Below are positions 10,828 to 51,534 of a stretch of DNA of 64,000 nt, piece by piece. This stretch comes from Tridacna crocea (Eukaryota; Mollusca; Bivalvia; Cardiida; Cardiidae), in the NCBI GenBank assembly GCA_943736015.1, contig OX031063.1, positions 46,702,672-46,766,671 on the forward strand, in the 5' to 3' direction. Positions within the stretch are counted from its first letter, which is position 1; each line of letters begins with the position of its first letter. The position numbers and the translations under genes are program-made. The notes below the pieces were generated by a model. It was not told where the DNA came from and did not search any database. It saw only the letters and a program-made list of their open reading frames with translations.

Positions 10828-10831
10828 TTAA
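10828..10831. repeat. TTAA target-site duplication, left
   Basis: TTAA directly before AGGGCAAATC. It matches TTAA at 31080-31083 on the other side of the 20-kb element. Confidence 0.75.
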
Positions 10832-10975
10832 AGGGCAAATCAACAAGTTTCAGATATGGTTAATTTTCAAATCTGCATCTATCAAATAGTAACCTGTTAA
10901 TGTTGAAAATTGAAAAAAAAATATTAAAAGTACTTTTTTTTTAATTTATATTTCTGCTTTTCAAATTTTATTGCA

Positions 10976-10988
10976 TCGCTTATCTCCC
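10976..10988 (+). repeat. Left subterminal inverted repeat
   Basis: TCGCTTATCTCCC, an exact inverse of 30886-30898. Confidence 0.75.
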
Positions 10989-11015
10989 TTACTTATTGTT
11001 GTGTCCCTTGACCTG

Positions 11016-11023
11016 TGACGTCA
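11016..11023. promoter_or_regulatory. CRE-like palindrome upstream of the P2X7-C gene
   Basis: TGACGTCA lies 20 bp before the ATG and is followed by TAG, as in the mirror copy at 30869-30876. This is the consensus CREB/ATF site; function is inferred. Confidence 0.55.
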
Positions 11024-11042
11024 TAGGAGCGTGACTTTCAAT

Positions 11043-14000
11043 ATGGACGTTGTTTACGATAGTGAATTGAGTGATATTGAAGACGAAGAAATTGACGATT
11101 CTGGTCCGGTAAGGCCGTACATGTACGAGCCAATTTTTAAAGAAACTAACCAAGTCTCTGAGGATGAGGATGAAAGCAGCTTTTCGCCCACGGATGACGA
11201 ATATAACGATGTTGTGCCAGACGTTTCAACATGGTGAGTAGGCCTTTCTGTATTGCGCGCTTTTGAAATAAGTCCATTTCGGGCGAACGTCGCTTACAGA
11301 AATATTTTACTGTACATGATAAACTTAAGTGTATAGCCTAAACTTTGTTTCACGTGGAGCAGTTTCAGTGGATTAACGGACGAATTAAACAAAAAAGAAA
11401 GATGGTTCAAGACGGTTCCACGAGACAGTTCCCGACACGATTCCCCCCGACGGGTCCCCCTAAACACAGAACCTAACCGAACCTTAGCTATTTTTGCCGA
11501 ACCTAAGTTGTTTTTGGGCCATACAGTGTTTGCATGATCTTAACAAGTATATTTTCTATTTCAGAAACAGTTTGATAGTTATAATTCGAAAGAAAATGCA
11601 GCCCTTTGTGATATATAACGATATATTAGGACCTTATTGTTCAACGAACCTAAAAATCTCGCAGAACTGTCCGCCATATTGGAGGCTATTATAACCCGGG
11701 AATGCTATACACCGGTACCATCCGGTCTTTGCGTGATATTTGTCTACGATATCCGGATTACCTTCTTAATAAAGACTTATTGTGAATTTTTAGTTTGTTT
11801 TATGTCCCCATATTAATTTCCTCGTGTCTGTTTATATTTTTGCTTTTATTGAAAATATGGAAATGTAGAACTTGAAGGATATCAGACATCTGGACCACAG
11901 ACCATCTAGACCGCTTAAATTTTGGACCCTGCGATCTATAAAACCCATGTTTCGCTGAGACTAATAGACCCCTTATTTCAAGAAAATATAACTAATTGTG
12001 TTGTTGAAATGTGACAAAATGTTCTTTTGTTCTTAACATAAAATAACCGTTACCACAGCTGAAAAGACAGCATTTTGGAAAACATTGTAGGAAAAGGCTA
12101 AAATATGGTAACCGGCTTTTTCACATTTTCCTACAATGTTTTTTCATTTATCCAATGAAAAAGACAACACGTTAAGTCACAGGTAGGGCTATTTTGTTGT
12201 CAGCAAATGCTTTCAATGTGAGGAGCGAAAACATTTTGTCCAGAGGTAATCTCTAAATTAATGCTATGTGCAGATGGTAATGAGTTAAGGGGTGTTTTGG
12301 AAGATGTTTCATAAGCTCCCAGAGTACCTCTTCTCTTAACCCTTATCCTGCCGTTCTTGACTATGGACTAATTTTGCGGAGAGTGTGGATCAAGATCAGC
12401 ATGCACATACCTGCAGTCTGACCTTGCTCCACACTCCTCGATGCTCTTTCAATAGTTTACGGCAGCGAAATCACACCCAATGCCATTTAAATAATTGAAC
12501 TCAGGTTTTATTCCGTCAAATATTTCGATTCGGCAAGAAAAGGGTAATCCCCATACTGACTAGAAAAGGACAATAAATTGTATTACAGGGATAATATTAG
12601 GATCATTTCAATTTCAAACCATGTCTGTCCATTCTTGGTTATCGGTCATTTTGACTACCCATCCAATTACCAACCTATCCATCTTTCCTTCCTTGCCTTC
12701 CTTCCTCCCTGACAAAATTTTGACATTGTCCTAATTTAACCCATTACCACATAATCCCTACTTTTGACGCTCCTGACAAAGACGCCTTCAGAAAACATTG
12801 TGGGAAAAAGAGAAAATGCTGGTAACCAACATTGTCTTTTCCCACAGTGTTTTCTACCCTTCACAAAACAAATTTCAAATTTTCGGTCATTTTGTCGTCT
12901 GCTAATGCTTTCGTTTTGGTCGTTCGATAATGAGTTAACCCTCTCTCAAACAAGCCCTGATTTTTACGTGTCTGCAGTAAAAGTGTATTGAAAACACTGT
13001 GGGAAAAGGAGAAATTGCTCGTAACGAGTGTTTTGTACCCTTTTTGAGAATTTTCTACCATTTTCTCCAAATCTAAAATAGTTGTCTGCAAACTCTTTTG
13101 GTTTGGAAGAGTCCAAAATTTGTCGTTTGGGAAAGGGTTAAAGCATTTGAAGACGACGACTGAAGACCATGTATAACATTATAAATGGATCAATTATCAC
13201 TTCCCTCCACAGTTTTCAACCCTATGAGTAAAACATGTTCAATTTGTTGGTACACACAAAACATTGTTTGAAATTAAGTGGTGGCATTCTTTTGAAAATC
13301 ATAGTGCAAATACTCGTGTTTGTTGATACCTACAAAGGACAACAGTCATTGAAATATTTTTGACTTGTGCAAATTGATTATTATATGATACAATACAGTA
13401 TACTGTATTGTTTATAAATTAATTGATAGCAATAAAAGTTGCAGGAAATGCCCTTATTACATCAAACTGTTATTGACTGATTGCATAATCATGATTAAAA
13501 CTTTGACTCGTATAAAGTTTATTGTTGTTGTTGTTATTGTCGTAAAAAAACAGTATGCACAAAAATGATTGCATGACGGAATTTCTCATTTTTCCACAAT
13601 GTCTTCTACACTAAGATATTTATTCTTCAAACTCAATTCGTCTTGTCCAGACATCTTTCAAACTGGAAAATTGTGTTGTATGGGACAGGGTTAAATATTT
13701 AGAGAACCTGCATACAACACACTCAAGATAGCATATGGAACAGTGTGGGAAAACAAGAAATTGCCTGTTTTCCGTCTCCTAAAATGTGTTCAAGAGTCAG
13801 CAGCTGAAGACTTGGAACGTTGTATTACGATCATTTCCCCTTATCAAAGAACTAATTTAAGAGTCTTGCAACGATTGCGTGGGAAAAGAAGTACTAGACT
13901 TTCAAACCCATCTTTTCGTACAATGTTTCTACTTTATATTTTTGGGGGGAGTTTCGTACCTCTGGTTTTGTAACCCATGTTCAGAATGGAAGGCATAATC

Positions 14001-17000
14001 GTGCAAAAGATTTTTCATGAATACAACTAACTTTTCTTTTCTTTGTACGATAAAAATGAACAAATACTTCTTTTTCAACATTGTTTTCTAAGCACCATAG
14101 GCATGTGTATGGAAAGATCAAGGGTTTAATATAAATTTAGGTTGATTCAACTCTTGTGTCAAGTATTGTTATCAAACAGCGTTGCAAATCTGTCTCGCAG
14201 CGGGTATTGTGTTTTCCGGAATAACGTGTTACTTAAAGAAACAATTAGAATTACAGTGATATACTGTATCTCCCTTGTTTCCGTTGAATGAATTATGATT
14301 ATCCGATCTGAATTGACACTTTGCATATATATACATACGTACAATTTACAAGCTAGCCAAAAATGATGGAAACGTTATCCAGAAGGATAATCTTCTACCT
14401 CACACATGATTCGTCTGCTCCTTTTGATAATTACGGTTACGTTAGAGTACAGCATATTTTGGATATATTCAATATAACAAAACGCCAGCTATCGGATGTC
14501 ATCAAACAAAGACTAAGAGTCTGATCAGAAGTTGTTATATCCCTGAACGTGAAGAATAATTTGAAAGCCGGCCTTAAGCTTTACGGGCTTGAAGACGGAA
14601 ACCTGGCTGCGCCGGGAAACGGAGATGGTTTTATAAAACCCCAATACTTCAAGTCCATTTCTTTAAAACAGTAAACATAAACGGCCTTTTCAAGGCCACA
14701 AAATAAATAGAAAGATATTTTTCTCTAATTGTCAACATACCCCTTCCCCCATTTCCCATTCAATCATCAAACCTTTCCAAAACGAACCCTCGTTTTTACG
14801 TGTCTGCAGTACAAGTCTTTTGAAAATACTGTGGGAAAAGGAGGAATTGCTCGTTAATTGTGGGAAAAGGAGGAATAGCTCATAACGAGCAATTCCTCCT
14901 TTTCCCACAGTGTTTTCTACCCATTTGGAGAATTTCTGCCATTTTTTTTTTTTTTTTCAAATTTGAAGTTTTTGTCTACAAACTCGTCCTTTTTGGAAGA
15001 GTGTAAAATTTGACGTTTGGGAAAGGGTTAGAATTAATGATACTCCTTTTAAGTTGACCTTGACATGAAACACTCATGACCACATTGTGAGAAAGGAGAA
15101 ATTGCTCAACAATACCAACTTCTCAAATTTCCATCAGACTCTTATTCCTATACTCTATATAAAACTGATTTGTATAAGCGTAAATATCGTCTTCTGCAAA
15201 TACTTTCAAATTCTATCAGCATTAAATTAACGTTGTCATCTGCAAATACTTTAAATTTTGGACAACATTGTGAGAAGAGGAGAAAATGCTCAACTATAAG
15301 ACCTTCTAAATTTCCCATACTCCACATAAAACTGCATGGTTTCTACCATAATAAACATTGTCGTCTGCAAATACTTTCGATTTCGGACGGTGTAGAAATT
15401 GGTGTTTGGAAATGGGTTAGAAAATTAAAGAATTCATTCAGATTTAGAAATTCCACAATTTCATCAAGATGCATTGTATGTAGTGAATTCGACTGCTACT
15501 CTGATAAAAAAAAGACTGAAAATTTGAAGTGGATGGAAACAATGCAATATACAATATCCGGGAAAAACGGGCTGTTACCGGTGTATATAGCATTCCCGGG
15601 TTATAGCCTCCAATATGGCGGACAGTCCTGCGAGTTTTTAGGTTCGTTGAACGATATGGTCCAAATATATCGTTATATATCACAAAAGGCTGCATTTTCT
15701 TTCGAATTATAACTATCAAACTGTTTCTGAAATAGAAAATATACTTGTTAAGGTTATACAAACACTGTATGGCCCAAAAACAACTTAGGTTCGGCAAAAA
15801 TAGCTAAGGTTCGGTTAGGTTCTGTGTTTAGGGGGACCGCCCCCCGACACTTATGAAGACATTTCCCAGACACATATTAGATTCATGAATGTCAAATAGT
15901 CTAGCCTCTTTATTGATAATCGTGAGATGTCAATTCTAACTGTTTGTTGATAGGTCAATGTTGATATTTCTACCTTGTAAAGAATTCTGTAAACATTGGT
16001 CCTTGTTGATATTTGTACCTTGTAGAGAATTCGGTAAACATTGACAGAAGTTCTTCTCTGTATTCTCTCATTGGTGAGGGGTTACACAATATAACACGAT
16101 ATTTGTAATACATGTACATGATATTTGAAATTATGTTTACCAACATGAAATTTGAAAAAAGAAATTTTTTCGAGACAATTTAGAGTTAATTCTTAAAATT
16201 ATTTTGATTTTATTTTGTACAGTACTTACTATTTCAGAAATAAAACAATATAATATGTAGATCTAGGCCTACATGTAGGTTTACATCAGGGACAGATAGA
16301 AGGGATCTACGTTTGTGAAATACTTTTTTGCTGTTTACCATGTACACATGATTCAGTTAATGCAAAAATTCATCATACGTATCATTCAAAATGTACATGT
16401 ATCATATGGTATTTCTTTGTTTGGTATGTTGCAATGGAAGGCCATCAAACTATTCCGTCAAATAAAGCCGAGTTATTTGCCTTTTGACACTGAACCAAAG
16501 TATTGAGAAAGTATCTACAAATGCGTTGGTCTCCAAATCTGTCATGGAACTATCTCAAAAACTTGTGACATGGAAATGTACAATGTATTGTTGTGATATC
16601 GTCTTGTTCCCAAATTAGTCAGTTTCACATTTTGTTGTTTGTTTTTCTTATGGTTTTAATCGAATTGTACTATAGATCTAAGGAGATTTGATATTTAAAT
16701 GAAGATTCCTTCCTGTCAGAGTTTTAGTGTTATAAGACTAGGAGAGGGTTGAAGGAATATAGCTATATATTTTATTGAAATTGTAATGCAAATGTGTCTA
16801 ATAAGATACTGTCACACTGCATAAAGTAACTGGCAACTTAAATACATGTAGTGTTCATGTCATTCTGGTTGAAATTTACTGGTATTAAAGGATTCTTTTA
16901 GATTGGGATCAAAACAGCCCGCTCCAAAAATGGCCAATTACCGAAATGTCCCAGTGCCAAAACTGAAAATTACTGTAACAGGCCTTTTATTTTGCCATTA

Positions 17001-19426
17001 CTTAAAACCATTCTGAGTACTTTAAAAATACTGTCATTTGGACAATTCAGTTTTACTAATCTATATTCATATGAGCCATGCTATGTAACAAGTGGGCTTA
17101 ATGCATCTTTGAAAAATATCGACCAGGCTATCCTGGGCTAAGGCTTTTTGCCGTTGGTCAGTTTTCTGTATGTCAAGGGAACAACCTACCACATGATTAA
17201 CAACAAAATTTTAAGTTTGTCCAAATCGAAAGCATTTGCAGATGACAAAATTTGAAATTTGTTTTGTAAAGGGTAGAAAACATTGTGGGAAAAGGAGAAA
17301 ATGCTGGTTACCAACATTTTCTCCTTTTCCTACAATGTTTTCTAAAGGCTTCTTTCTCAGGGGCGTCAAAAGTAGGGATTGTGAGGTAATGGGTTAACTT
17401 GTGTGTTTGAAGAATTGGCTATTATGGATCCAAAATTATGTGATGACTAGGGCTAGTGTAGTGCATTAGCTCTTTACCGAATGACAAAATTTTAGACTGG
17501 TCCAAATTAAAAGCACTTACAGATGACAAAAGAACTGTAACTCAAAAATTGAAATTGGTTTCCAGCAAGGTAGAAAACGTCATGGGAAAAGGAGAAAATG
17601 GTGGTTAACAGCATTTTCTCATTTTCCCACGATGTTTTCAAAAAGGCTTCTTTCTCAGGGTCGTAAAAACCAGGCTCAGAATATAGATTTTGCACAAGTT
17701 GGCATTCAAGGTCTTGGTCTGGGCCATTTTCTAAGTGGGCTGCTTTGAACCTATCCTTTTACATAAAAGTAAAAGAGGCTTTGTATATTTCCTATAATAA
17801 TTCTAAGGCTTAAGCAGTACACTGAAACTTCAGTCCTCATTCTCCTTATTTTTTTTTTAACAGGTGCCAGTGTAACAACTGTGCTAATATGGATACCGCC
17901 ACAGAAGCAAAGTGCTGCAGAACCACAAATGTAGTAGATGGGAAGGTAGAAGTTGAGGGTCTGAACTGTATTATAGAACACGAAGGATTTAGGGTGAATT
18001 GTCTGAATATCCATGTGTTGGAAGTGGCATATTACGACCATGTACAGCAGTTAGGTCCACCTGAGGAAGACCAAATAATTCATGAGTAAGTAAATTAAGA
18101 AAAAAATGCAAGCTTGAAATCTCATTTTTAATGCTATATTCATTCACATTGTGCCAACTTCTGCTTTTTCTGTAAATGTAGTCAAAATGTAGTGTGAAAG
18201 TCATCCTTGCCTTGCTACATAGCCATTATTTTCAGCAACATGAAAGAGTGTTTGCCTTGTGCACTGCAGGTTGCAGGTTCAATCCTGAGGCAGTTTATTC
18301 AATAGCACAGAGAAAAATTTCCTCCGTCTTGATAGGTGCATGAAAATTAGTACAATTACTATATTCAGATGAATGGTGAAGGTATTTTCACAAACATAGT
18401 TGCAACATTCTTATATAGGAAACTGGTGCTGCATTGCAATAGAGTTAAAACCACAAGTGCTTCTGATTGAGGAAAATATAAATTTTGAAAATTGTTTTTT
18501 AACTCTTTACTGAATGAAAACATTTTAGACTTGAATAAATTACAAACCTTTGCAGATAACAATAGAAATGTAACACTATAATAGAAACATGTTCCCAGCA
18601 GGGTAGAAAAAATTGAGGGAACAGCAGAAAATACTGCTTTCCAGTGTTTACAAAAAGCTACTATGACAGAGTCATAAAAACCAATGATTGTTTAGTTAAC
18701 CCATTAACATACCATCCCTACTTTTGAAGACCCTGAGAAACAAGCCTTTAGAAAAACATTGTGGGAAAAGGAGAAAATGCTGGTAGCAGCAAAGAGCATT
18801 TTCTCTTTCTCCCATAATGTTTTCTGCCCTTCACAAACCAATTTCAAATTTTCAGTCTCTTTCATGTAGTCATCTGCAAATGCTTTTGATGTGAACAAAC
18901 CACAAAATTTTGTCATTTAGTAATGTGTTAACCCATTACCACTCAATCCCTACTTTTGACGCCCCTGAGAAAGAAGCCTTTTGAAAACACTGTAAGAAAA
19001 GGAGGAAATGCTGGTAACCAGCATTTTCTCCTTTTCCCACAGTGTTTTCTACCCTTCCCAGAACAAATTTCAATTTTCCAATCACTTTTATGTTGTCGTC
19101 TGCAAATGCTTTCAATTTGGACCAGTCTGAAATTTTTTCTTGTGGTAATGGGTTAAAGTGTTAAACCTTTTATATCCAAAATTGATCAGAAATCTTTACA
19201 TGTGAAAGATTGGTTATTCTATAAGTGACAGTTTTCTTCACTTCATCCTTGTTACATTGTTTTATATTTCAGACTGTATAGACACCTTGCCTACAGAAGA
19301 TTCGTAAGATGGGTATATGGACTGCTGGGAAAAGGAGTGAGGAAAGTTATACCTTCCTGTGCAGTGACAGCTATTAGAAATGCCTTTCCTTCAGAAAATT
19401 ACTGCGGTTTTAAATACCCACAGTAA
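11043..19426 (+). CDS. P2X7 cytoplasmic C-terminal domain-like protein (3 exons, 188 aa)
   Basis: Exons 11043-11233, 17864-18085 and 19273-19426, with donors GTGAGT and GTAAGT and acceptors AACAG and TTCAG; both junctions are phase 2. Residues 1-63 are acidic and contain RPYMYEP. From residue 64 comes WCQCNNC (C65, C67, C70), CCR (C81, C82), C99, a helical VLEVAYYDHVQQ, LYRHLAYRRFVRW and IPSCAVTAIRNAFP, ending NYCGFKYPQ. This is the order of conserved features in the cysteine-rich 'ballast' at the end of vertebrate P2X7 (WCQC, CCR, LR..AYR, IPSC..IR..FP, GF). There is no ion-channel part and no transmembrane segment, so the product should be soluble and probably binds zinc. The ATG at 11043 is the first in the frame; the frame's upstream extension starts only at GTG. 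Intron 1 (6.6 kb) carries a nested transposon. Its role inside the element is unknown. Confidence 0.88.
12050..12255 (+). repeat. TTAA-HP copy, degenerate
   Basis: Hairpin AACATTGTAGGAAAAGG / TTTTCCTACAATGTT around GGTAACC, with the GCAAATGCTTTCAATGTG side recognisable. Confidence 0.6.
12355..12446. repeat. GATCAGAC palindromic dispersed repeat
   Basis: GAGTGTGGATCAAGATCAG pairs with CTGACCTTGCTCCACACTC. Related units occur at 37278, 51205, 51535 and 55640. Confidence 0.6.
12736..12938 (+). repeat. TTAA-HP copy, subfamily A
   Basis: TTAACCCATTACCACATAATCCC ... ATAATGAGTTAA; abuts the next copy at one TTAA. Confidence 0.85.
12935..13141 (+). repeat. TTAA-HP copy, subfamily B
   Basis: TTAACCCTCTCTCAAACAAGCCC ... 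GTTTGGGAAAGGGTTAA. The left arm is intact with core CTCGTAACGAG; the right arm is largely deleted. Confidence 0.8.
13560..13696 (+). repeat. TTAA-HP right half, degenerate
   Basis: TTTTCCACAATGTCTTCTAC ... GGGACAGGGTTAA. Confidence 0.5.
14769..15030 (+). repeat. TTAA-HP copy, subfamily B, arm duplicated
   Basis: The arm TGTGGGAAAAGGAGGAAT occurs twice in a row before the core CATAACGAG. The left end has lost TTAA; the right end reads TTTGGGAAAGGGTTAG. Confidence 0.75.
15040..15421. repeat. Two degenerate TTAA-HP remnants
   Basis: Remnants such as CATTGTGAGAAAGGAGAAATTGCTC and repeated GTCGTCTGCAAATAC can be traced, but hairpins are broken. Confidence 0.5.
15900..17190. other. Intron 1 sequence without recognised feature
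   Basis: I see only a short direct duplication near 15955-16040 (TGTTGATATTTSTACCTTGTA). Confidence 0.4.
17197..17397 (-). repeat. TTAA-HP copy, subfamily A
   Basis: TTAA at both ends; nearly perfect arms around TGGTTACCAA. Confidence 0.8.
17466..17690 (-). repeat. TTAA-HP copy
   Basis: CTCTTTACCGAATGACAAAATT start; the core GGTTAACAGC itself contains TTAA; the right end is eroded. Confidence 0.7.
18215..18310 (+). repeat. tRNA-like (SINE) fragment
   Basis: GGTTGCAGGTTCAATCCTGAGG resembles a Pol III B box. No complete A box or cloverleaf was found, so this is a fragment and not a tRNA gene. Confidence 0.3.
18499..18699 (-). repeat. TTAA-HP copy, first of a chain of three
   Basis: Diverged arms; TTAA at both ends; the right TTAA is the left TTAA of the next copy. 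Confidence 0.7.
18696..18931 (+). repeat. TTAA-HP copy, second of three
   Basis: TTAACCCATTAACATACCATCCC ... TTAGTAATGTGTTAA; the centre is enlarged (GGTAGCAGCAAAGAGC). Confidence 0.85.
18928..19156 (+). repeat. TTAA-HP copy, third of three
   Basis: Near-consensus subfamily A with GGTAACC core and TGGTAATGGGTTAA end. It lies just upstream of exon 3 of the P2X7-C gene. Confidence 0.9.
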
Positions 19427-19585
19427 CTTGGTGAAATATAAGTTATCAAGGGAGTTCGTGTGTTCCTTAATTTCCTACAGTAATTTATACCCTTTCACAA
19501 ACTATCCTTATTTCATATGCAATGACCTTCAATTTGGATAAATTTAAGATTTTGTAGTCTTGTAATGAATTAATATGTTCTTCAT

Positions 19586-19757
19586 CAACTCTTTACCACA
19601 GGACAAATGACTGAAAATTAGAAATTTGTTTTGGGAAGGGTCGAAAACATTGCGAGAAAAGCAGACAGAAAATGCTGGATACCTTTCCAAATACAGTTTT
19701 CGATAGGCTTCTTTTAAAAGGTCGTTTAAAGTCAGGATCCTGTGGTGAACAGTTAAG
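19586..19757 (-). repeat. TTAA-HP copy, degenerate
   Basis: CTCTTTACCACAGGACAAATGACTG ... GGTGAACAGTTAA; a right-half remnant (19475-19572) precedes it. Confidence 0.55.
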
Positions 19758-19999
19758 TTGATCATGATTACAAATTTTAACACTTAATTACACTAACAAA
19801 TCTGTGTCAGCATTGTTTTAGAAATATAACAATATTTTTTTATCTTATACATGTGTGAGACAAGAACATTTGTAATTTCTGTATTATATGGGAAACAAGG
19901 GGAGTTATGTGACAAAAAGTAGAGCCTACATAAATTTTTGGCCCTTTACTAAAACAAACAGATGATCAGCAGTGAATACTTCACAATACATTTATCAAC

Positions 20000-20211
20000 C
20001 AATTGCCATACAATTCTGAGTTTTAATGGCCCTGAGAAAAATTTTGAAAACATTATGGGAAAAGTGGCGATGCTAGTAACCAGCATTTATTCCTTTTCCC
20101 ACCATGTTTTCTATTCAAAGGAAAGTGTCACTATTTGAACCAACTTTGATGGTTGTCTACAAATGCTATAAATTTGGACAAGTCTGAAATTTTGTTCAGG
20201 TACAGAGTTAG
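20000..20211 (+). repeat. TTAA-HP copy, diverged
   Basis: AACATTATGGGAAAAGTGG arm and AGTAACCAGC core; ends CAATTGCCATACAATTC / GGTACAGAGTTA. Confidence 0.65.
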
Positions 20212-20507
20212 AAGAAATTGCTTGTAATGAACAATTTCTTCTTTTTCGGCACTATTTTATATATTGGCAACAAAGTGCAACTTTTAAGAACTAGGAATAG
20301 AATGGTCATCCACACATTCAGTCCGAACTTTTGAGGACCTGTAGGATTAAGGCATATAAAAACCTTGAAGGAAAAGTGTAAAAAGCAGGTAACCTGCATT
20401 TTCTCCATTCCCCACATTGTCTTCTATGCTCAGTAGAAAATTTTTTTGAGGCAGTGTTGCTTATAATGTGAACAAGTCTTTAATTTTGTTGTCAGGTTTT
20501 GAGTTAA
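20211..20507 (+). repeat. TTAA-HP remnants (B piece plus A copy)
   Basis: A short B-type stem (GAAATTGCTTGTAATGAACAATTTC) is followed by an A copy with core GCAGGTAACCTGC, ending at TTAA 20504-20507. Confidence 0.5.
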
Positions 20508-20731
20508 CTCTGTACCACACAAATGATTTTTAGACTGGTGCAATTTGAAAGAACTTACTGACAATAAAATAAACTTAACTAAAAAATAGAAATTTGTTTC
20601 CAGTGGAGTAGAAAACTTTGGGTGAAAGGAAGAACATACTGGTTACCAGCATTTCCTCTTTTTCCCACAATGTTTTCAAAAGGCTTCCATCGAAGGGTCG
20701 TAAAAAACAGGGATTGTTTGGCACAGGGTTG
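20504..20731 (-). repeat. TTAA-HP copy
   Basis: TTAACTCTGTACCACACAAATG start; right end GGCACAGGGTTGA has lost TTAA. Confidence 0.75.
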
Positions 20732-20869
20732 AAATAGTGAAACATAAAAAATAGAGAATGTTTATAAATTACATGAAGAAAAAATGAATGTTTGCAGTTT
20801 GTTTTTTTGAAACAAGTATTTATATGTAAGTTTTTACCATACCATTTATACGATTGTAATGCTCTAAAA

Positions 20870-20935
20870 TCTTTACCAAAAAAAAATCACATCATTTTTT
20901 GACTCGTGCAGGGAAGCCTTTTGGAAACATTGTGG
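20870..20935 (+). repeat. TTAA-HP copy truncated by foldback repeat
   Basis: Runs from CTTTACCAAAAAAAAATC to GGAAACATTGTGGCAG, then switches abruptly into the foldback element. Confidence 0.55.
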
Positions 20936-21690
20936 CAGTGCACGGCTGTGGTGAATCATGTGGCTGAAGGCTCAGGGCGACATAATTCACCACAGCCGTG
21001 AACAAATTTCAAAGTCCCCTGCCACCTGACCGTATAACAAATTTATTATACTGCAAAGTTTACCCTTTCAAAGCTCATTAAGTGGATTTTTCCTGTTTTG
21101 TAATTTCACGAATCAAGTAGTTGAATAGGGCACTCAAAAGGGAAACTGGCTTTATTTGGTTTTTGCCAGGATACATGATATATATGTTCCCAGCCTGTTA
21201 ACCAATCAGATCAAAAGAAATTTCTTTGCAGAATAATAAATAATTTTATTATACTGCAAAGAAATTTCTCGTGATATGATTGGTTAACATACCAGAAACA
21301 TATATATCATGTTCCCTGGCAAAAACCACATCACTGCGCATGCAACACAACATCCAAAGCGGCTGCATCGATCCATCACCAGACTACACATCTATGCACC
21401 AAACCAGTTTCCAGTGACGTCAGTTTTCATTGAGTTGGGGCACTCAGAAGGGGATTTCTATTTCGTCAGCATACTCCATTCGTGAGATGATAATACAGGA
21501 AAATTTTGCTTAACACACTTTGAAAGGGTAAAACTTTGCAGTATAATAAATTCCTTGTACGGGCAGGGCACTTGAAAACTTGTTCATTTTTGTATCGAAT
21601 CATGTTGCCACCTCGCCTTCGGTTCCGGATGACATGATTCACCACAGCTGTGAACAAGTTTCCAAGTCCCCTGCCACCTGATTGTACAAC
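20936..21690. repeat. Large compound foldback repeat
   Basis: Outer units CACGGCTGTGGTGAATCATG and its inverse occur at both sides with AAGTCCCCTGCCACCTGA. Middle units ACTTTGCAGTATAATAAA are inverted copies of TTTATTATACTGCAAAG. The inner arms 21155-21320 (GGTTTTTGCCAGGATACATG / inverse) are centred near 21237. It lies between the two convergent genes. Confidence 0.75.
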
Positions 21691-21803
21691 TAATATTGCT
21701 TTTGTGTAATAGAACCTTTACATCAACAGAATGTTACAATAGAGAAATCTATCAAAATGGCCTTGTAAAAGAAACAAAACTATAAACTCAAATCAGCCAG
21801 TTA

Positions 21804-24800
21804 TCATCTTGCGAATCTTGCCCTGTGAGCTTTAACAATTTCATCTTTTTTGGGTCTTGGTGTACTGCAGGCTATTGGTTTTGGTTTTTCTGACACCTGC
21901 TCATCATTTGCTTTTCGAGCCCTCAAATAGCTGTTATTCTCTTTGCGATTTTCAAGCAGATAGTCCATGAGTTCATCAACATAACCTGAAAAAAAAAAAA
22001 AAAAAAAGGAACTGAATGTTTATTTCCATCTTGGGTATTACTCTAGTTATACAATGGCAAACAATTTTGTTAATTCAAGGTCTTGCTGATGCGACCAACT
22101 GTTCATTCTTGATCATGCTATCCAGTCTTAATGCTTCCTTTTAACAAGAATACCATAGAGGGAGTTCATAACCACAGTACTTGTGATATGCCCAAAGGGT
22201 CTTACTATGTGATGGCCCTGGTTGTGTATCTGTCTGTCTGTCAATCCGTCCCTTTGCGTGTGCAACTTCTCCTACAGTTTCCGTTGGAATAAGTTCAGAC
22301 TTTCCACAATGAATCTCTAAAATGTGTGGTTGGGCATTTGACTCTTAAAATTTGGATCTCATAGGTGTTCTTGATTTTAACCCATTTTAATGACCAATAC
22401 GCCGCTCTGCAAAGCTCTTGTTGTCCTTGGTATGATGTGGTGTAAGGCTGAAACCTTGCTTTGAACATGAATACAGTTGAATACCTTACACCAACCAATG
22501 CCATCTTCAAACTATCCAGAGAAAGAATGCTTTTGAAAACATGTGAACATGAGAAAATGTTTGTAAGCAGCTCATTTTCCATTTGCACAATGTATATTAC
22601 TGTTTGAGATAGAAATTTCATGTTTTGAATAAACATCAGTATGTTACATTACCAACTAACTTACCAAATGTTGCTTCTTTTTTCACTTCTTTAGCAATTG
22701 CTGCACCTTTCCTTGATTTCGGAAATGATATTCTCCATTGTAAATTCCCGTCTTTTGTCACTGCTTGAGTTCGTGAGGAATTTTCATTAAAATGAAGTGC
22801 AGCTAGAGCAAGTCTGAAAAGAAGTATTTATGTTTTCCTTACAAGTCACCAATTTAACCCATTACCACTCAATCCCTACTTTTGACGCCCCTGAGAAAGA
22901 AGCCTTTTGAAAAAACTGTGGGAAAAGGAGAAAATGCTGGTAACCAGCATTTTCTCCTTTTCCCACAATGTTTTCTACCCTTCACAAAACAAATTTCAAA
23001 TTTTCAGTCACTTTTATTTTGTCGTCTGCAAATGCTTTCAATTTGGACCAGTCCAAAATTGTCTCGTGTGGTAATGAGTTAAAACTATTACCAATTCAGC
23101 GTTTTATAAACATATCTGCAGTAGAAGTCCAAACAATATCATGGGAAAAGGAACAGTTGCCCATGACAAACAATTGCTAATTCACACCATGTTTCCTACA
23201 ATATTGGAGCACTACGTACCAATTTCAGGAATGATCTGTAAGCAGCAAAGTCTTTCAATTTAGGATGCTGCATCTTTTTATATGTAGTCAGAAAAAAGGT
23301 TGAATATGATTTTCATTCAACAGTTTGATGAAATGCACAGGACTGATAGGTGTAAGGTACAAATGTTTTTCTAAGTTTAGTATTCAATTGTCTAACGATT
23401 TTATTCTAACACAAATTATTAACCCATTACCACACAATACCTACTTTTGATGACCCTGAGAAAAAAAGCCTTTAGGAAACAATGTGGGAAAAGGAGAAAA
23501 TGCTGGTTACCAGCATTTTCTCATTTTCCCACAATGTTTTCTACCCTTCACAAAACTTTCTAATTTCCAGTCACTTTACTTTTGTTGTCTGCAAATGCTT
23601 CTGATTTGGACAAACCTAAAATTTTGCAAAGAGTCAACCATCTACATTACTGAGAGTCTGGGCAAAAACTTGGACAATTACAACACAAGTTACCTTGCTT
23701 CCATCTGTGCATAGAAGTAATGTACGGACTTCGCAGCAAACTGGCAAACAACATTATGAAAAGACCCAAGTGTAGATGTCTGTTCAGTTGGTGACAGCTT
23801 TTTTACATCTTGCACAAGCAGTCTTCCTGTGACAATTTTTTCCATTTCAACATATGGTTTAAAACCTGCCAAAAACAAAATACAATTACAGATAAAAGAT
23901 TTCAGATCTGTCAAGACCAAATTCGAATTCCAGTTTGGTTACGCAGACTGAAAATCTGCTCAGATCAAATTGGAATATTTCCTTGTGAAATAGTGTGACT
24001 ACCTGTAAACCATCTCATTTCATTTGGTCCCTAGAATAGAGGTTTCAATCAGATATTCAGTTAAAATTGACTTTTAAAAGTGTTGTACTTTAGTGGCAAA
24101 AACAATTTTGAAAAACACAGAATTTGTATGGAAAAAGAGTAGAAATCATAATGTCTTACGGGAGGATGAAAATAAAAATTGAAGTACACTCTTCTATGTA
24201 TTTTGAGTTGTATTTTTTCCTATGGAAGAGCTTTTGTTTAGCAGATCAAAGATAAAACGGAAAATAAGAACCAAATTGAGTATTTATGTACCTTTTTTCA
24301 TCCAGTCTCTGTCATCTAGCTGCCCATGTTCACAATGTGGAAACTTCTCTCCATGTCCACTGTGAATATTTGCCACATGGTTGAGAATTGATAGCCACTT
24401 CTGTTGCACAAGCTCACCATCACCACCACTACTTGCAGCACACCAGTACATATGGTTACTTATGGACCTTGCCCAGTCCTTCACTTTTTGGCATCCTTTT
24501 TTCTTGCCAGCCGCTTCAAGTTTCTTGTAGACACCTGTGAAAAAAAGAAAAACAAAAAAGTCATTTCAGTTAACTCTTTACCAAACAAGAAAACTTTAGA
24601 CTTGTCCATTGAAATTGAAAGATTTTGCAGCCAACAAAGCAAATATGACTTGAAAATTGAAATTTGTATTAGGATGGGTAGAAAACATTGTGGGAAAAGA
24701 AGAAAATGCTGTTTACCAGCATTTTCTCCTTTTCCAACATTTTTTTCAAAAGGCCTCTTTCCCAGGGTCTGTAAAAGTCGTGATTGTGTTGGAAATTTTT

Positions 24801-27800
24801 AAAATTTGAAATCTCAAAGATCCAAAGCCAAAAGTCAATCTTACATTTCTCACAAATTCACATGAAAATGTTCATACAGACGACACTCACTTTCAAAACC
24901 CCTCTCTGATGTTGAAAGTTTACGAACCATTACCTTTTGCAACATGCCAAACATCAAACCAGTGCTGAATACAGGGCCTTTCTTCACGCAAGTGCTTCTT
25001 TATGGAGCTGTGACGGTCTGTTACTAGGTCTGACACGGTTAGGTCTTGTATCTCTATGAGCCATCCAAGTCCTCTCTTTAACCCCTCTATTTCCATGGCA
25101 TGCGAGTTTCGGACTTCATTGCTCTGAAAACATTAGCAGTAATGTGTAAATATACTCCTTTCTGAACTTCAAGGAAGTTCAGTTACAGATGCTGTAATCT
25201 ACATGTATTAGAGATGCTTTGCATGTGAATATGTATGTATTTCATATGCATTGCAAGAAATTAGGTTGGATTGGACTGAAAAAATAGCAAACTCTGGTCC
25301 ATTCAAAATTCATAGCCTATTATTTAGCATTTTAAACATGGGTCAAATTATCAGATTCTTCTCATGCGTTAGTAGTCAACATTGTAGTAAAGAGAGAAAA
25401 TGCTGGTTTTAAAAACCCTCTCCTTCATGCTGATGAAATTCAAAAATGGTGGTAAAGGGCTCATGTGCTAATATGAATTATGAAAACATTAGAATTTTCA
25501 CAAACATACCTGAACCAGCTGAAAATCCAAAACTTGGTTTGCTTCTAGGTCTATCATCGTGTAAGAGCCATATTTTGCTGTATGACCTGGGGTGCAACAT
25601 CTCATATCTCCAGCCAGCTTCAGTGATTTACCATGGCTCCTTATCTCCCTGACCATAGACTGTTGGTGCTTTTTCCAAACTGACATTACCGTTGGTGTTA
25701 GATAAGCCGACTGTATCAAATTAAAAGTACTGTTGCTTATATTTTGTATTGAAGCAAAGTCTAGTGCTCTCAGTACTTTCACTGGACTCACACCACAAAA
25801 CATGACTGCTGCACTCAAAATTAAGTTTCCCAATGGCATGTTACCGCATAGTGGCTGACTTCGCCATGTTGTCTCCTGCTCACAGTTGAAGCACTTAATA
25901 TCACATACCAGACATGTTCCTACAGTCTTCTTGTTCACACAAGTGATAGATCCACAGACAGAACACTTGTTCAATAAACTGTCGAGACATGATTCAAACA
26001 CAATGTACTTTCTTTCTTTGGCAACATTTGTATCACAATCCTCGATTTCATTATCACTGTCTTCAATTGGATGCCACTCAGGATCTCTAGCGTTGTCTGA
26101 TACTAATGACAACAGGGATTCATTCAAACTTTCATTCATATTCATACCCTTCATAGGCTGTATATCATGTTCTTTCCTCGGGGGAATGGAGGTTGTTTGG
26201 GTGCCTTTATTTTCTGTCTGCACAACTGGGCATTGGATCAAAACACTCCTTCTTTTCTGTTGAAGAAAAAACACATAAAATTAATACTATAACACTAAAG
26301 CTGCTAAGGACGACTCAGGCTCCTTTAGTGGACATGTGTAGATGAATATCAGAATAGAAAAATGTGCAGTCTGATCTTAGACCTACACTGTCCAAGAGGG
26401 AGACAGCTTTCTTCCACAAAATCTAAACTTGAATAGCAATTTTGGGTTTTTAACTCTTTACCAAATGAGAAAAGTTAGATGGTCTATACTGAAAGCATAT
26501 GCAGACGACAAATAAAACGCAACTGGAGGATTGAAAATTTGTTCCCAGCAGGGTAGAGGTCACAATGTTTTCAGCTGTCAGTAGCTGACATTGCATTAAG
26601 TTTGGTTATCAAAGAGCATAGCTCATAATAGATATATCCAGTTCAGTAATTGAAACTTACTTCGAGGAAAGGAGTATGCACTTTTGAGATGTCATTTACT
26701 TTTTATTGCCTAATCTACAACCATTCTCTTAGCTTTAACTCTTTATCAAATGACAAAATTTTCAACTCCCCTCAATGAGTGCATTTGCAATTACATGGTA
26801 CATGCTTTTGAAAGCATGATGTGAAATGGAGACTACCGTATGCTGGTTACCAGTATTTTCTCCTTCTTCCACATTGTTTTGAAAAAGTTTGTTCCTCAGG
26901 GTCATTAAAACTTGAAACTGTGTGGCAAAAATTTCATACATGAACAAAGTGAAACTTACGACAAGGTTGTAAGCTGTCTGTGTGGCTGTTGAAAATGTTC
27001 GTTGACTGGTGAGAGTTTGGCTTGGCAGTACATTTTTATCGGAGCCTATTGGGTTGATCTGGTGTGTTGTAGATAACTGTGTGCCTGTTGATTCGTTGAC
27101 AGTTTGGAAGTGGTTTTGTTCAAGTTGTCTCTGTTGGAACTTGGATTCAGATGAAAATGTAGAAAGCTTAGGTAAAGAACTTGTTAAATCTGCAAACCAC
27201 GTCAATGAACAAGGGTAAGACTGGCAAGTCTGACGATTCATTGTAGATGACACTGCTGTAGTTGTGATGATGGAAGTGGTTGTAGCAGCTATTGAGGGGC
27301 AAGCAGTCACACACGAGAAAAGTGGAACTGCTGTGTAAACTTCTCCAAAATGGTCTGTGTTTGTCTCTGCTAAACATGGATTCCTTTCTTTTTGTCTGAG
27401 CATCAAAGTTGAGTTTATCTAAAAAATCAATGGCAAAACATTGAAATCGAACTTGCATGTTATCCATATGGGCAAAAAATACATAAGGGTTTATTCTTGA
27501 AATGTTATCCGGTTTAGCTGAGGAGTAGCAGCAGTAGTGTTTGGCGTTTGTCATTTGGTAAAGTGTTAACTCTTTACCAAATGACAAAATTTTAGACTGG
27601 TCGAAATTGAAAGCATTTGCAGACAATAAAATGAATGTGATCAAAGAATTGAAATTTGTTTTAGGGAGGGAAAAAAAACATTGTGGGAAATGGAGAAAAT
27701 GTTGGTTCCTAGAATGTTTTCAAAAGGCTTCTTTCACAGCGGGTGTTCAGAGTAGGGACTGTGTGGTAAAAGGTTAACCCTTTCCCAAACAACAAATTTT

Positions 27801-30769
27801 GGACCCTTCCAAACCGAAAGAGTTTGCAGACGACAATCTTAGATTTGGAGAAAATTGCAGAGGGTTCTCCAAAAGGGTAGAAAACATTGTAGGAAAAGGA
27901 GAAATTGCTCATTACGAGCAATTTCTCCTTTTCCCACAGTGTTTTCAAAGACTTTTACTACAGACACGTAAAAACCAGGGCTTGTTTGGGAAAGGGTTAA
28001 CTCTTTAATACACAATACTGACTTTTATAGAATCGGAGAATTTCCCACAATGTTTTCTGCCCTTCCAAAATCAAATTTCGATTTTTTAATGACATTCATT
28101 TTGTCATCTTCAAATACTTTCAATTTGGACTTGTCTGTAATTTTGTTGTTTGGTAAGGAGTCAAACATGGGACAAAATTTCCAAGTGGTAAAACTTGAAT
28201 ACCAAAAGGAAATTGGAGTCAAAAGATGGAATATTTTACTGAAAGACTTTGTAATATTTTGGCAAGAGGACAAAATACATGTACCAGCATTTTTACCTTC
28301 ATCTAAATTGAATTTATAGACCTCTGTGAAAGTCATAAACTCTAAATTTTGTGTCATGTAAATTTGTTAGTTCTGGTTTGTCTTCTGCAATTTTTTTCAA
28401 TTTGGGCAAGTCTGAAATTAGTCTCACAAGGAATGAGAGGTTAATACTGAAATTCAGATCAAACTGAAGTAAAGACGACTTTAGAACCATTGTAAAAACA
28501 TAAAGAGAGCTGGTATCAATTGATCCTTTATCCAAAAAATGTTTTATTTTTAACTGCATGTTTACAAAACTTCAAAATTTTAGACAGGACCAACCTGAGA
28601 ACACTGTCTTGCAGACAACAAAAAAAAGTTACATATTTCAAAAACTGAAATTTGTTTCCAGCACAATAGAAAACATTGTGGTAAAGGAGATGCTGGTTAC
28701 CAGCAGTTTCTCCTTTTCCTACAATGTTGAGTTCTGGTGTAGTTTCCAGGAAGCAGTATCCAAAGAAATTAGTATGACGTGAATGAACTTGTTTCTCAAT
28801 CGATGCAAAATTCTGTACCAAATGTCAACATTACAGACTTGTCCAAATGGAAAGAATTTGCAGATGAAACAAAAGATTATTGGCTCAAAAAATGAAAATA
28901 GTTTCGGGAAGGGTAGAAAACATTGTGGGAAAAGAAGAAAAGGTTTTTCTCCTTTTCCTGCAATGTTTTCAAAAGGTTATTTTCTCTGGATTGTTAAAAG
29001 TCAGGATTGTGTGTTAAAGAGTTAACATGTTCAAAGGGTTTTTCTTAGTTGCCTGTTTATAAGATATTATGATATGGAAGAAAGAAATGCCCACAAATCA
29101 AAATTGTACAGAACTGATATAAATCAGAATTTGGTCAAAATGCATGCAAGTTGTCAAAGAGTGAATTGTCAAAGAGAGGTAGTGTATGGCATAAAAAGCT
29201 TTACACTGGTTTACTGTCACAAACAAACATTACAGTGTAAAGGGGTGAGATATGCAATTGTTATGTAACCATTTCCTGTATTGTTTCAAATGGTCAGTGA
29301 TGGATTAACATTTATGACCATGACTAGGGGTAGCCAGATACTGACCTCTCCCTTAACCATATAAAGCCTAGATCTAGGTTCCCATACCAAAAGAAATAGT
29401 GATTGAAAATGATGTTTGCTATTCAAAAAATGAATATAAACACTTATATAAGTTAACATCATTTGAACAATCCAGACTTTGTAACTTGCAAAATTTATGT
29501 TATGAATTTGAATGAACATGTAAATTTGTTGCCTTTGAAACATTGTGGGAAAAGGAGAAAATGTTAGCAATTTCTCCTTTTCCCACAATGTTTTCCATCC
29601 TTTCCAAATCAAGTTTCATTTCAATTTTTGGTTCACAATTCTTTTGTCTGCAAATGCTTTCAATTTGGACTAGCCTAAAATGTTTGTGTTTGGTGAAGAG
29701 TCAGCTGACCCTCCGTTTTTTACAACCCTGAGTTAGAAGCCTTTTGAAAACATTGTGGAAAAGGAAGAAAATGCTGAAACACTTGAAAGTTAACATCATT
29801 TGAACAATCCAGACTTAGTTATTTGCAAAATTTATGTTATGAAATTGGATGAATGTGATGTTTTTTGCCTTTGAAAACATAGTGAGAAAAAGAAAAAATG
29901 CCAAGATTTTCTCCTTTTCCCAAAATTTTTTTCATCCTTTCCAAATCAAATTTCATTTCAATTTTTTGATTCCCATTTTTTTTTTGTCATCTGCAAATTT
30001 ATGCTTTCAATTTGGACTGGCACAAAATTTTGGCGTTTCCTGAAGGGTTAATTAACCCTTTACCAAACAATCCCTGGTTTTTACAACCCTGAGATGGAAG
30101 CCTTTTCAAAACATTGTGGGAAAAGGAGAAAGTGATGGTAACCAACATTTTCTCCTTATTCTACAATGCTTTCTATCCTGGTGGAAACACATTTCGATTT
30201 TTAAGCTAGGTTTAGAATCTACTTTGTTGCCTGCAAGTGCTTTTAATTTGGACCAGTCTAAAATTTTGTCTTTTGGTAAAAGGTTAAATGTTGAAAACAT
30301 TTGGGAAAAAAAGGGAGAAAACGGCACCAATTTATCCTTTGTCCGGAATGTAGTTCTAGAAAGGGATAAAATATTACGAAAAACAATTAAAGGGATTACT
30401 TACCTCATGTTTGATTTTCTTTTTGGAGATTGTCATTGCGGAATGTCTGTCTTTTGGTTTATGGCCGATCTTCTTTCGACCCGGAGTTTCGAACAATGTC
30501 GGCACAGCATCAGGTTTTAACCGCAGCCTAAAATTCTTGTAACCAACTTCTTTTGCGAATTTTGGACTTATTAAGAACTGACTGTCCTCGAAGTGTTTCA
30601 AACACAATTTGGAATGAACCGATGGCACAAAATCCGTCGTTACTGTCCGGCCCCGGTTTAAACGTTGAATCCATAGTTTCCTCCTTTTTAATTCCTTCGG
30701 AAATTTGAACATACTAATTCTATGTGTTCCCGATTCGACGTTGCAGCCATAGGCTGCACAATTTACCAT
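21804..30769 (-). CDS. THAP-domain Kolobok-type transposase (8 exons, 835 aa)
   Basis: Exons in order: 30769-30404, 27418-26960, 26256-25510, 25123-24934, 24534-24292, 23865-23694, 22813-22665, 21985-21804. All are GT-AG; together they are 2508 nt with matching phases and no internal stop. Residues 1-93 form a THAP zinc finger (C4, C9, C56, H59, W33, AVPTLF 88-93). Residues 123-345 are Ser/Thr-rich and probably disordered. A cysteine cluster follows (C373, C376, C381, C390, C393, C397, C400) with W406-RSQP. The DDE core has GDMRC (D492), VTDRH (D560), FDVWHVAK (D581-H584), SISNHMYWCA, HCEHG and LAALHFNENSSR, a pattern I know from Kolobok transposases and their host-gene relatives. The third acidic residue is not assigned. 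It should bind element ends and catalyse cut-and-paste at TTAA. Intact frames permit either an active element or a co-opted gene. Confidence 0.9.
22195..22300. repeat. (TGTC)n-bearing dispersed repeat fragment
   Basis: TATCTGTCTGTCTGTCAATC followed by CAACTTCTCCTACAGTTTCC; transposase intron 7. Confidence 0.35.
22490..22640 (+). repeat. TTAA-HP remnant
   Basis: Traces of both arms (GCTTTTGAAAACATGTGAACA) are visible; ends are lost. Confidence 0.4.
22854..23082 (+). repeat. TTAA-HP copy, near consensus A
   Basis: TTAACCCATTACCACTCAATC ... GTGGTAATGAGTTAA with a perfect GGTAACC core. It begins 41 bp upstream of transposase exon 7, in intron 6. Confidence 0.92.
23079..23275 (+). repeat. TTAA-HP copy, degenerate B
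   Basis: Shares TTAA with the preceding copy. CATGGGAAAAGGAACAGTTG and ACGTACC traces remain. Confidence 0.5.
23419..23636 (+). repeat. TTAA-HP copy, subfamily A
   Basis: TTAACCCATTACCACACAATACC; core TGGTTACCAGC; the last 10 bp are lost. Confidence 0.85.
24570..24795 (-). repeat. TTAA-HP copy
   Basis: TTAACTCTTTACCAAACAAG start; core TGTTTACCAGC; right end eroded. Transposase intron 4. Confidence 0.75.
26450..26575 (-). repeat. TTAA-HP half copy
   Basis: TTAACTCTTTACCAAATGAG through GCAGGGTAGA; then the hairpin is deleted. Confidence 0.6.
26735..26930 (-). repeat. TTAA-HP copy, diverged
   Basis: TTAACTCTTTATCAAATGAC; core TGCTGGTTACCAGTA; transposase intron 2. Confidence 0.65.
27566..27777 (-). 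repeat. TTAA-HP copy, first of a chain of three
   Basis: TTAACTCTTTACCAAATGAC ... GTGTGGTAAAAGGTTAA; part of the core is deleted. Confidence 0.85.
27774..28000 (-). repeat. TTAA-HP copy, subfamily B, second of three
   Basis: TTAACCCTTTCCCAAACAAC ... TTGTTTGGGAAAGGGTTAA; stem GAAATTGCTCATTACGAGCA. The best-preserved B copy in the window. Confidence 0.92.
27997..28164 (+). repeat. TTAA-HP copy lacking the left arm, third of three
   Basis: Shares TTAA with the preceding copy; CACAATACTGACTTTTATAG then directly the right arm. Confidence 0.65.
28570..28735 (-). repeat. TTAA-HP copy, partial
   Basis: ATTTTAGACAGGACCAACC through the GATGCTGGTTACCAGCAG hairpin; ends lost. Confidence 0.6.
28808..29025 (-). 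repeat. TTAA-HP copy
   Basis: Ends CTGTACCAAATGTCAAC / GTTAAAGAGTTAA; the loop is reduced to GAAAAGGTTTTTC. Confidence 0.7.
29442..30051. repeat. Tandem duplication carrying TTAA-HP copies
   Basis: 29442-29777 is repeated as 29778-30051 (shared AACATCATTTGAACAATCCA and ATTTATGTTATGAA). Each unit contains a TTAA-HP copy (29535-29703; 29870-30051). A partial third copy lies at 29703-29775. Confidence 0.75.
30052..30287 (+). repeat. TTAA-HP copy
   Basis: Begins at the second TTAA of TTAATTAA; CCCTTTACCAAACAATCCC ... TTTTGGTAAAAGGTTAA. Transposase intron 1, close to exon 1. Confidence 0.85.
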
Positions 30770-30868
30770 TTTTTCGGCTGAATTCTTTGTTAATACTCAG
30801 ATATCTGCGTATAATCATCAGCGTTCCTACTAATTTCTACTGACTGTAAACACAGGCTTACGCGACTA

Positions 30869-30876
30869 TGACGTCA
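30869..30876. promoter_or_regulatory. CRE-like palindrome upstream of the transposase gene
   Basis: TGACGTCA sits 100 bp before the transposase ATG, followed on the minus strand by TAG as at the other end. CREB/ATF binding is inferred. Confidence 0.5.
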
Positions 30877-30885
30877 CACAGGTAC

Positions 30886-30898
30886 GGGAGATAAGCGA
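30886..30898 (-). repeat. Right subterminal inverted repeat
   Basis: GGGAGATAAGCGA, the exact inverse of 10976-10988. Confidence 0.75.
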
Positions 30899-31079
30899 AT
30901 CAGGGGAAGTCAGCCATGCACCATTTTTGGGGCCGTACGTCAGCGTGACAATTCGAGCGTGATTTATGGCATGTTACAGGGTGTTATTTATGAAAATTGA
31001 TTGACACGTGTTTACTAACATCATTTGCAGCTGATTGGAGCAAAAAAACAGTATGGTCAAAAATCTTAGGATTTGCCCT

Positions 31080-31083
31080 TTAA
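31080..31083. repeat. TTAA target-site duplication, right
   Basis: TTAA immediately after GATTTGCCCT, the right end of the 20-kb element. Confidence 0.75.
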
Positions 31084-51200: not shown

Positions 51201-51204
51201 ATCA

Positions 51205-51427
51205 GTTTACATACATTAGACTGCATGAATCTAGGATCACACTGCAATTTTGGTAAGTCTGATCTTGGTCTACACCGTCCTCAGATATTTCACTGAAGGC
51301 TTTAGTTACATTTATCAGTTTACATACATTAGACTGCGTGAATCTAGGATCAGACTACAATATTGGTAAGTCTGATCTTGGTCTACACCGTCCTCAGATA
51401 TGTCACTGACTGGCTTTGGTTACATTT
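51205..51427. repeat. Tandem pair of ~108-bp GATCAGAC units
   Basis: ATCAGTTTACATACATTAGAC ... TCTGATCTTGGTCTACACCG ... GGTTACATTT occurs twice in a row; a third related unit is at 51535-51608. Confidence 0.75.
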
Positions 51428-51534
51428 AATTTACATGCCAGCTTACATGTTTAGCAATATCCGTAATTATTACTAATTTTGTCAGAATATATATGAATAC
51501 ATATACATGTACATGTACGTAGTTAAGCATGTTG

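Follow-up and report, generated by a model that had tools for sequence, protein, structure and literature searches.

A probable Kol0-lineage Kolobok transposon carrying a transposase and a KolX gene in Tridacna crocea

In the genome of the bivalve Tridacna crocea, a segment of about 20 kb (positions 10828–31083) lies between TTAA-flanked inverted repeats within a 64,000-nucleotide stretch of contig OX031063.1 (assembly GCA_943736015.1, forward-strand positions 46,702,672 to 46,766,671), referred to here as the window. The locus raises the question of whether this segment, which holds two convergent genes, is a mobile element, a domesticated locus, or a pair of host genes placed between chance repeats. 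Comparison with the rest of the genome (1.049 Gb, 31 contigs) indicates that the segment very probably belongs to a Kolobok DNA transposon family of the Kol0 lineage that is multi-copy, was recently active and encodes a transposase and KolX. Judged from its predicted protein, the window copy itself is probably a dead-enzyme copy.

The element begins with TTAA-AGGGCAAATC at 10828–10841 and ends with the same sequence, inverted, at 31070–31083, as a first-pass annotation of the window had proposed, and its termini, AG ... CT, follow the 5'-RR ... YY-3' pattern of Kolobok elements. Within the window, the 15-mer TTTAAAGGGCAAATC is present only at the two element ends, with up to two mismatches allowed; shuffled sequences gave a mean of 0.39 matches and 8 of 100 shuffles reached two or more, so that this pair by itself is weak evidence within one 64-kb window. 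The inner inverted block (CGCTTATCTCCC ... GTGACGTCATAG), recognized in the same annotation, was not matched twice in any of 100 shuffles. Genome-wide, the 15-mer occurs at 502 places (252 + 250) against 2 (0 + 2) for its reversed control, an excess that identifies the terminal 15-mers as real family ends; extended to 24 bases, the left end still has 442 occurrences, against none for the control.

Aligning the ends genome-wide, the check that had been suggested for this locus, revealed other copies that start and stop at the same letters in different flanks. TTAA borders both sides of the window element, of a shorter copy at C2:10370064–10381654 (copy B; 11,591 bp) and of 13 of 13 paired short copies of 3.0–3.5 kb, the latter taken from the first 100 of the 502 places with a search pattern that fixes the base adjoining TTAA. 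Two of these short copies, L026 (C3:4045088) and L029 (C3:59016051), occupy the same TTAA of one dispersed repeat, for which a segmental duplication of the occupied site is the alternative. In the DNA compared here, 15 joined flanks were tested and only the L026/L029 site gave an unoccupied match: a copy of the repeat in L006 runs straight through the joint, uninterrupted by the element (82.7% identity, tetramer changed), which fits a TTAA duplication. The predicted empty site was thus recovered in paralogous form. Both subterminal blocks contain TGACGTCA, which we take to resemble a CRE/ATF site. Among nine short derivatives and array units, the left block retains it in eight and the right block in all nine; copy B and the window have it too, and the window shows two more occurrences outside these blocks (21415 and 63231). 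By its position ahead of both genes, TGACGTCA could be a shared promoter element.

The larger gene, on the minus strand, has eight predicted exons with GT-AG borders, from 30769 to 21804, and a 2508-nt open frame encoding 835 amino acids plus stop. Its product matches the Pfam-type domains THAP (59.3 bits; cut-off 23.9) and Mutator-like transposase (39.9 bits; cut-off 26.5). Among 6,620 candidate proteins, 75 relatives were found, and the best ten include seven named proteins, all from bivalves. Catalytic D492 is Asp in 72 of 74 relatives and D560 in 74 of 75; D581/H584 and H640/H645/C655/H657 are also conserved, as expected for a DDE transposase with a C/DxxH motif and a zinc finger. The last catalytic Glu, in contrast, is kept by the family and missing from the window copy: residue 702 is Gly in the window, whereas the 70 relatives with a letter at this position (5 of the 75 are gapped) have 66 Glu, 3 Gln and 1 Lys. 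Two further conserved positions are altered, T497 (Ser in 66/74) and A713 (Pro in 62/71). A genome search with exon 6, in which all 19 candidates were scored, located eight places: the window with Gly, six copies with Glu, and a frameshifted one on C14. Among the copies found, the Glu-to-Gly change is private to the window. The six Glu copies are 99.3–100% identical to the window around exon 6 over the printed pieces, excluding cross-matches between miniature inverted-repeat transposable elements (MITEs); in C5 and C18- this comparison covers only part of the 3.2 kb. The long copies (compared in L062–L067) form two groups by a stretch of ~190 bp (window 22267–22455): it is present in the window, C18+ and C1 but missing from B, C6 and, as far as the printed pieces show, C18- and C5, and it accompanies Ala/Ser at residue 713.

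The second gene lies on the plus strand, convergent with the first, and has three predicted exons with a 567-nt open frame (188 amino acids). Likeness in sequence and fold identifies the product as KolX, which corresponds to the ballast (zinc) domain of the P2X7 receptor. The protein matches Pfam P2RX7_C at 74.9 bits (cut-off 23.5), and the four PDB sequences matched at an expect value (E) of 0.001 or less are all P2X7. A predicted model of a homologue, P0001, not of the window protein itself, has a mean predicted local distance difference test score (pLDDT) of 68 and a predicted template modelling score (pTM) of 0.62. Used in a fold search, this model retrieved P2X7 chains at ranks 1–14 (E 2.8e-5 to 5.9e-4, template modelling score ~0.5), the next match having E 3.3. 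In an alignment of 26 relatives, the window protein keeps 35 of 35 columns that have enough letters and are conserved in at least 85%. It has all seven cysteines conserved among these relatives, C65 (20/21 aligned there), C67 (20/22), C70 (22/22), C81 (26/26), C82 (23/26), C110 (26/26) and C167 (25/25). The seven named proteins among the ten best relatives are all from bivalves; at E 1e-5, a profile search retrieved 258 proteins, and molluscs, cnidarians, fishes, a tick and a nemertean are named among the best 120; no relative in viral contigs was confirmed. The first-pass annotation had described two intact convergent multi-exon genes. Their orientation, their multi-exon models and their open frames stand, whereas the transposase is not intact at residue 702; both this loss and the KolX identity had been missed.

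A guanine-nucleotide role for KolX was considered because the P2X7 ballast binds GDP (PMC7016195) and the THAP-type P-element transposase requires GTP for end pairing (PMC7776569). Three of five P2X7 guanine-nucleotide contacts are kept in the window protein (R546, H547 and R578, corresponding to R141, H142 and R173), and the R574 and K583 positions are V and S. Among relatives, R141 is present in 25/25 and R173 in 24/25; H142 is not a conserved column and the K583 position is Ser in 24/25, which speaks against a P2X7-like nucleotide site. That KolX would supply a guanine-nucleotide switch to transposition appears doubtful.

The two genes recur together elsewhere in the genome. Of 892 first-look candidates in the KolX search, 150 were scored, so that its copy counts are lower bounds: all three exons are kept at no fewer than six loci including the window, with exon DNA 100% identical except for one base in C5 exon 2 (99.5–100%), and a seventh locus, on C14, matches exon 2 at 99.1% and exon 3 at 96.1%. 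Each of the six near-identical KolX genes is accompanied by at least part of a near-identical transposase gene. Over 406 bases at the left end, seven other long-type copies show 0–1 difference to the window and have different flanks; they are C1, B, C5, C6, C17 and two on C18. Searching the genome with exon 3 of the transposase yielded 33 matches, grouped into 22 loci; a KolX core match lies within 20 kb of 15 of them, convergent in all 15, with a chance per locus of ~0.001. This linkage count uses 24 KolX places from the 150 scored rows, leaving out exon-1-only relics and second exons of counted loci. The seven transposase loci without KolX include copy B, which lacks window 17676–21965, that is, KolX exons 2–3 and most of transposase exon 8. 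Elsewhere, copy B has the same ends as the window in other flanks and is 99.8% (625 columns), 99.7% (1,836), 99.7% (5,555), 98.5% (3,222, right-hand) and 97.0% (301) identical to it. Seven of the 15 linked loci represent a second Kol0 subfamily, with 44–45% transposase identity, which has a convergent KolX 5–8 kb away at 7 of 7 loci.

The size of 20 kb, previously taken as a property of the element, is not shared by its sisters, which measure 15,853 bp (C18:28512387–28528239), 15,869 bp (C6:59088928–59104796) and 15,442 bp (C18:962371–977812, its right end judged from 30 bp); the right ends of C1 and C5 lie outside the stretches compared. The window copy is larger because of a nested Mutator-like element (MULE)-like insert of 4.4 kb, the site of which is empty in copy B, with one CCCCCCGAC. 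Without the insert and one 9-bp copy, the window element would be 15,859 bp long, and KolX exons 1 and 2, 6.8 kb apart in the window, are separated by ~2.4 kb in the other five complete copies. Only this insert looks private to the window copy. TTAA-type MITEs cover 34.7% of the element (one locus straddles its right border), 13.7% of the rest of the window and none of 3,075 exon bases; the chance of missing all exons is 0.012 by TTAA count and 2e-4 by length, and we attribute this avoidance to selection acting on the exons of the family. The MITEs of the blocks common to copy B stand at the same places there, and those near exon 6 are present in sister copies too, so that the family moved with them. 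The idea that the element owes its size to inserts gained after insertion, with a residual of ~10.3 kb, was rejected on the ground that B and other copies carry the same MITEs. These MITEs, of ~230 bp with TTAACCC-like ends and an internal palindrome, form one family with 61 loci in window 7965–63066, and their coverage of the Kolobok element is 2.5 times that of the window's remainder. The reading that the window copy had targeted one MITE and interrupted it was also rejected, since the left and right flank pieces look, by eye, oppositely oriented.

Several points weigh against a recently active Kol0 transposon. The exon structures of both genes are predicted; the assignment to Kol0 follows from gene content, not from a tree with named Kol0 elements; and the unoccupied site is a diverged paralogue, not an allele. 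The window transposase lacks its third catalytic residue, so that ‘active’ applies to the family only, and sisters are broken too (B, C17, C14, and C18:28522818, where exon 3 is split into two pieces). A lost catalytic Glu with frames still open and exons free of MITEs could also be expected of a domesticated locus, at which the host retains a non-cutting THAP DNA-binding protein and KolX, as proposed for many Xenopus Kolobok genes, of which only 24 of 38 and 7 of 24 conserve the DDE motif (PMC6004289). This explanation is very unlikely, given that six sisters keep the Glu and that the long copies at unrelated sites differ by at most one base in 406 at the left end and, at the six complete loci, in the KolX exons: with so recent a spread, selection on a single locus has had little time to leave a mark, and the presence of the MITEs in sister copies makes exon avoidance a feature of the family.

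The view that two unrelated host genes happen to lie between chance inverted repeats draws on the 15-mer pair, which within the window is not beyond chance. It is already refuted by the copies, namely by the genome-wide excess of ends and by loci elsewhere with both genes, always convergent, and identical borders, and its probability is vanishingly small. An assignment to KolobokP or another Kolobok lineage, in place of Kol0, could appeal to the particular richness of KolobokP in bivalves and to its multimers (PMC9587614). We regard it as highly improbable: no terminal direct repeat longer than 15 bp (E 0.34) was found between the two 1-kb element ends; the second gene is KolX and not a His-Me finger nuclease, for which the element's remaining frames were not scanned; and a second CCHC finger is absent after the first catalytic Asp, the only cysteines and histidines between residues 493 and 559 being C495, C496, H500 and H532. 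The Kol0 assignment is retained, and the Kolobok type, THAP transposase and TTAA duplications of the first-pass annotation are borne out by the domains, the flanks and the unoccupied paralogue.

The same ends also bound short derivatives. Identity among seven short elements and two array units is 95.9–98.4%, and it is 100% between the two array units. They keep KolX exon 1 (66–69% amino acid identity over the first ~35 residues, 61–65% over the next 23) and the THAP exon (85–91% over the main block; L015 retains only 17 amino acids), and no other part of the transposase or KolX was detected in them at E 1e-3. A role as THAP-only repressors is unlikely, as the second zinc-binding Cys is replaced by Phe in 3 of 3 printed sequences. 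In addition, the junction GATTTGCCC-TTTAAA-GGGCAAATC occurs at 11 genome places in four loci, against none for the control. At these loci, neighbours share a single TTAA; of the 11 junctions, nine, covering all four loci, were read at letter level and all nine are head-to-tail. In the C2 array, the units differ at six substituted columns in total, with length differences chiefly in a short GTCC repeat; in the C11 array, the two units read, the first and the last, show 2 differences in 3,398 columns.

As array units are far more alike than separate elements, an origin by repeated insertion from other places is improbable for anything larger than a first dimer. This leaves adjacent insertion with subsequent unequal crossing-over or a TTAA-sealed circle as origins, and the arrays may also be an assembly artefact. 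It is conceivable, if on balance improbable, that the action of the Kol0 transposase yields circles joined end to end and sealed at TTAA, which after amplification persist or reinsert as multimers in head-to-tail order; such circles would be a replicative side path of a cut-and-paste element, for which long direct repeats would not be needed. The arrays suggest that Kolobok multimers do not need long direct repeats of the KolobokP style, and literature searches, by their listings, turned up no TTAA-sharing multimers outside KolobokP.

Table 1. Coordinates of the element's features in the window, and of related loci elsewhere in the genome
Feature	Position	Strand	Remark
Left TTAA target site duplication	10828–10831
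Left terminal inverted repeat AGGGCAAATC	10832–10841	+
Left subterminal inverted block CGCTTATCTCCC..GTGACGTCATAG	10977–11026	+	Just upstream of KolX start codon; TGACGTCA at 11016
KolX exon 1	11043–11233	+	Predicted; acidic N-terminus, RPYMYEP motif
9-bp duplication CCCCCCGAC, left of nested insert	11443–11451
Nested MULE-like insert	11452–15839		Terminal inverted repeats >200 bp, 97% alike; not found in other copies compared
9-bp duplication CCCCCCGAC, right of nested insert	15840–15848
KolX exon 2	17864–18085	+	Predicted; zinc-ballast domain, first part
KolX exon 3	19273–19426	+	Predicted; ballast domain end, stop codon
Transposase exon 8	21804–21985	-	Predicted; with stop codon
Transposase exon 7	22665–22813	-	Predicted
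Transposase exon 6	23694–23865	-	Predicted; residue 702 codon 23765–23767, Gly here, Glu in 6/6 sisters with open exon 6
Transposase exon 5	24292–24534	-	Predicted; H2CH zinc finger
Transposase exon 4	24934–25123	-	Predicted; second catalytic Asp, DxxH motif
Transposase exon 3	25510–26256	-	Predicted; first catalytic Asp
Transposase exon 2	26960–27418	-	Predicted; linker; acceptor site least certain of the borders
Transposase exon 1	30404–30769	-	Predicted; THAP DNA-binding domain
Right subterminal inverted block	30866–30897	-	Upstream of transposase start codon; TGACGTCA at 30869
Right terminal inverted repeat AGGGCAAATC	31070–31079	-
Right TTAA target site duplication	31080–31083
C2 array (L016–L018, L022, L023)	C2:56646218–56672005		6 whole 4.3-kb units, TTAA at both outer ends
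C11 array (L073, L074)	C11:54055954–54072930		5 unit lengths of ~3.4 kb by 4 junctions, TTAA at both outer ends
Single end-TTAA-end junctions (L021; L075)	C3 and C10
Second Kol0 subfamily loci	C1:33516986–33522354, C7, C10, C13, C15, C17, C18

Outside the element, the window contains an open frame at 3668–4183 (minus strand) with a helix-turn-helix domain of the Tc3 transposase type (37.2 bits), probably a Tc1/mariner fragment, and another at 1054–1626 (minus strand) that by eye resembles part of a reverse transcriptase and has no Pfam match above cut-off. Two-copy tandem duplications with 93–96% matches are found at 51200–51428 (113 bp), 54289–54933 (322 bp) and 59527–59891 (185 bp). Rfam gave no match at gathering threshold.

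The mechanism proposed here starts from what the copies display directly: the ends, the TTAA target duplication, the unoccupied site, the recent multi-copy spread and the linkage of the two genes. The family's THAP and DDE transposase would bind the ends, excise the element from TTAA sites and insert it at TTAA sites, and the same enzyme presumably moves the short derivatives that keep only the ends. KolX may act as a zinc-ballast helper of transposition, perhaps in end pairing or regulation. The window copy would have lost its third catalytic carboxylate and gained the 4.4-kb insert after the family spread; with its ends intact, it should remain a substrate for transposition. KolX has a fold also found in the tail of P2X7, a human immune receptor and a target for drugs in inflammation. 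Six near-identical KolX genes with transposase parts, together with 442 exact left ends, point to a recent family, one suited to testing what KolX does, and its role perhaps bears on the original job of the ballast domain. The cytoplasmic tail of P2X7 has been proposed to derive from KolX, P2X7 having arisen by fusion with a KolX, which has the P2X7 ballast fold (PMC9587614).

Among known systems, ballast or ZCD proteins across animals were described by Rump et al. 2020 (PMC7016195), whose main text does not contain the string ‘transpos’. The ballast of P2X7 and of NANOR-like proteins agrees with KolX in sequence, fold and the R546/H547/R578 positions, whereas KolX here is a stand-alone transposon protein with V and S at the R574 and K583 positions. 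The XKol element of Xenopus tropicalis (PMC6004289, Table 5) shares the AG ends, TTAA and a THAP + H2CH + DDE transposase; its ten full-length copies span 6.8–13.9 kb, against 15.4–15.9 kb for the three sisters here, its transposase coding sequence is given as one interval, against eight exons, and KolX is unmentioned in the main text of that report. KolobokP shares the Kolobok transposase and tandem multimers, but neighbouring units of its multimers have direct repeats of ~450 or 660 bp in common, or in some cases abut with none, whereas the units here share one TTAA (PMC9587614). The closest likeness is to Kol0 (type Kolobok-1_XT), the families of which encode two proteins, a transposase and KolX (Kojima and Bao 2022, PMC9587614); a search of the literature for the name KolX gave nothing beyond this paper, and its accessible text holds no statement on the role of KolX for a transposon. 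Kol0 elements have TTAA duplications, 5'-AG ends, a DDE transposase with DxxH and a zinc finger, and a KolX with the P2X7 ballast fold and seven conserved cysteines (PMC9587614). The window copy differs from them by its nested MULE-like insert, the Gly in place of the last catalytic Glu and its MITE-filled introns. The second gene, which had been considered unusual, is thus the known partner of the Kol0 transposase: the Kol0 and KolX architecture is already in print, and the element of T. crocea adds another member.

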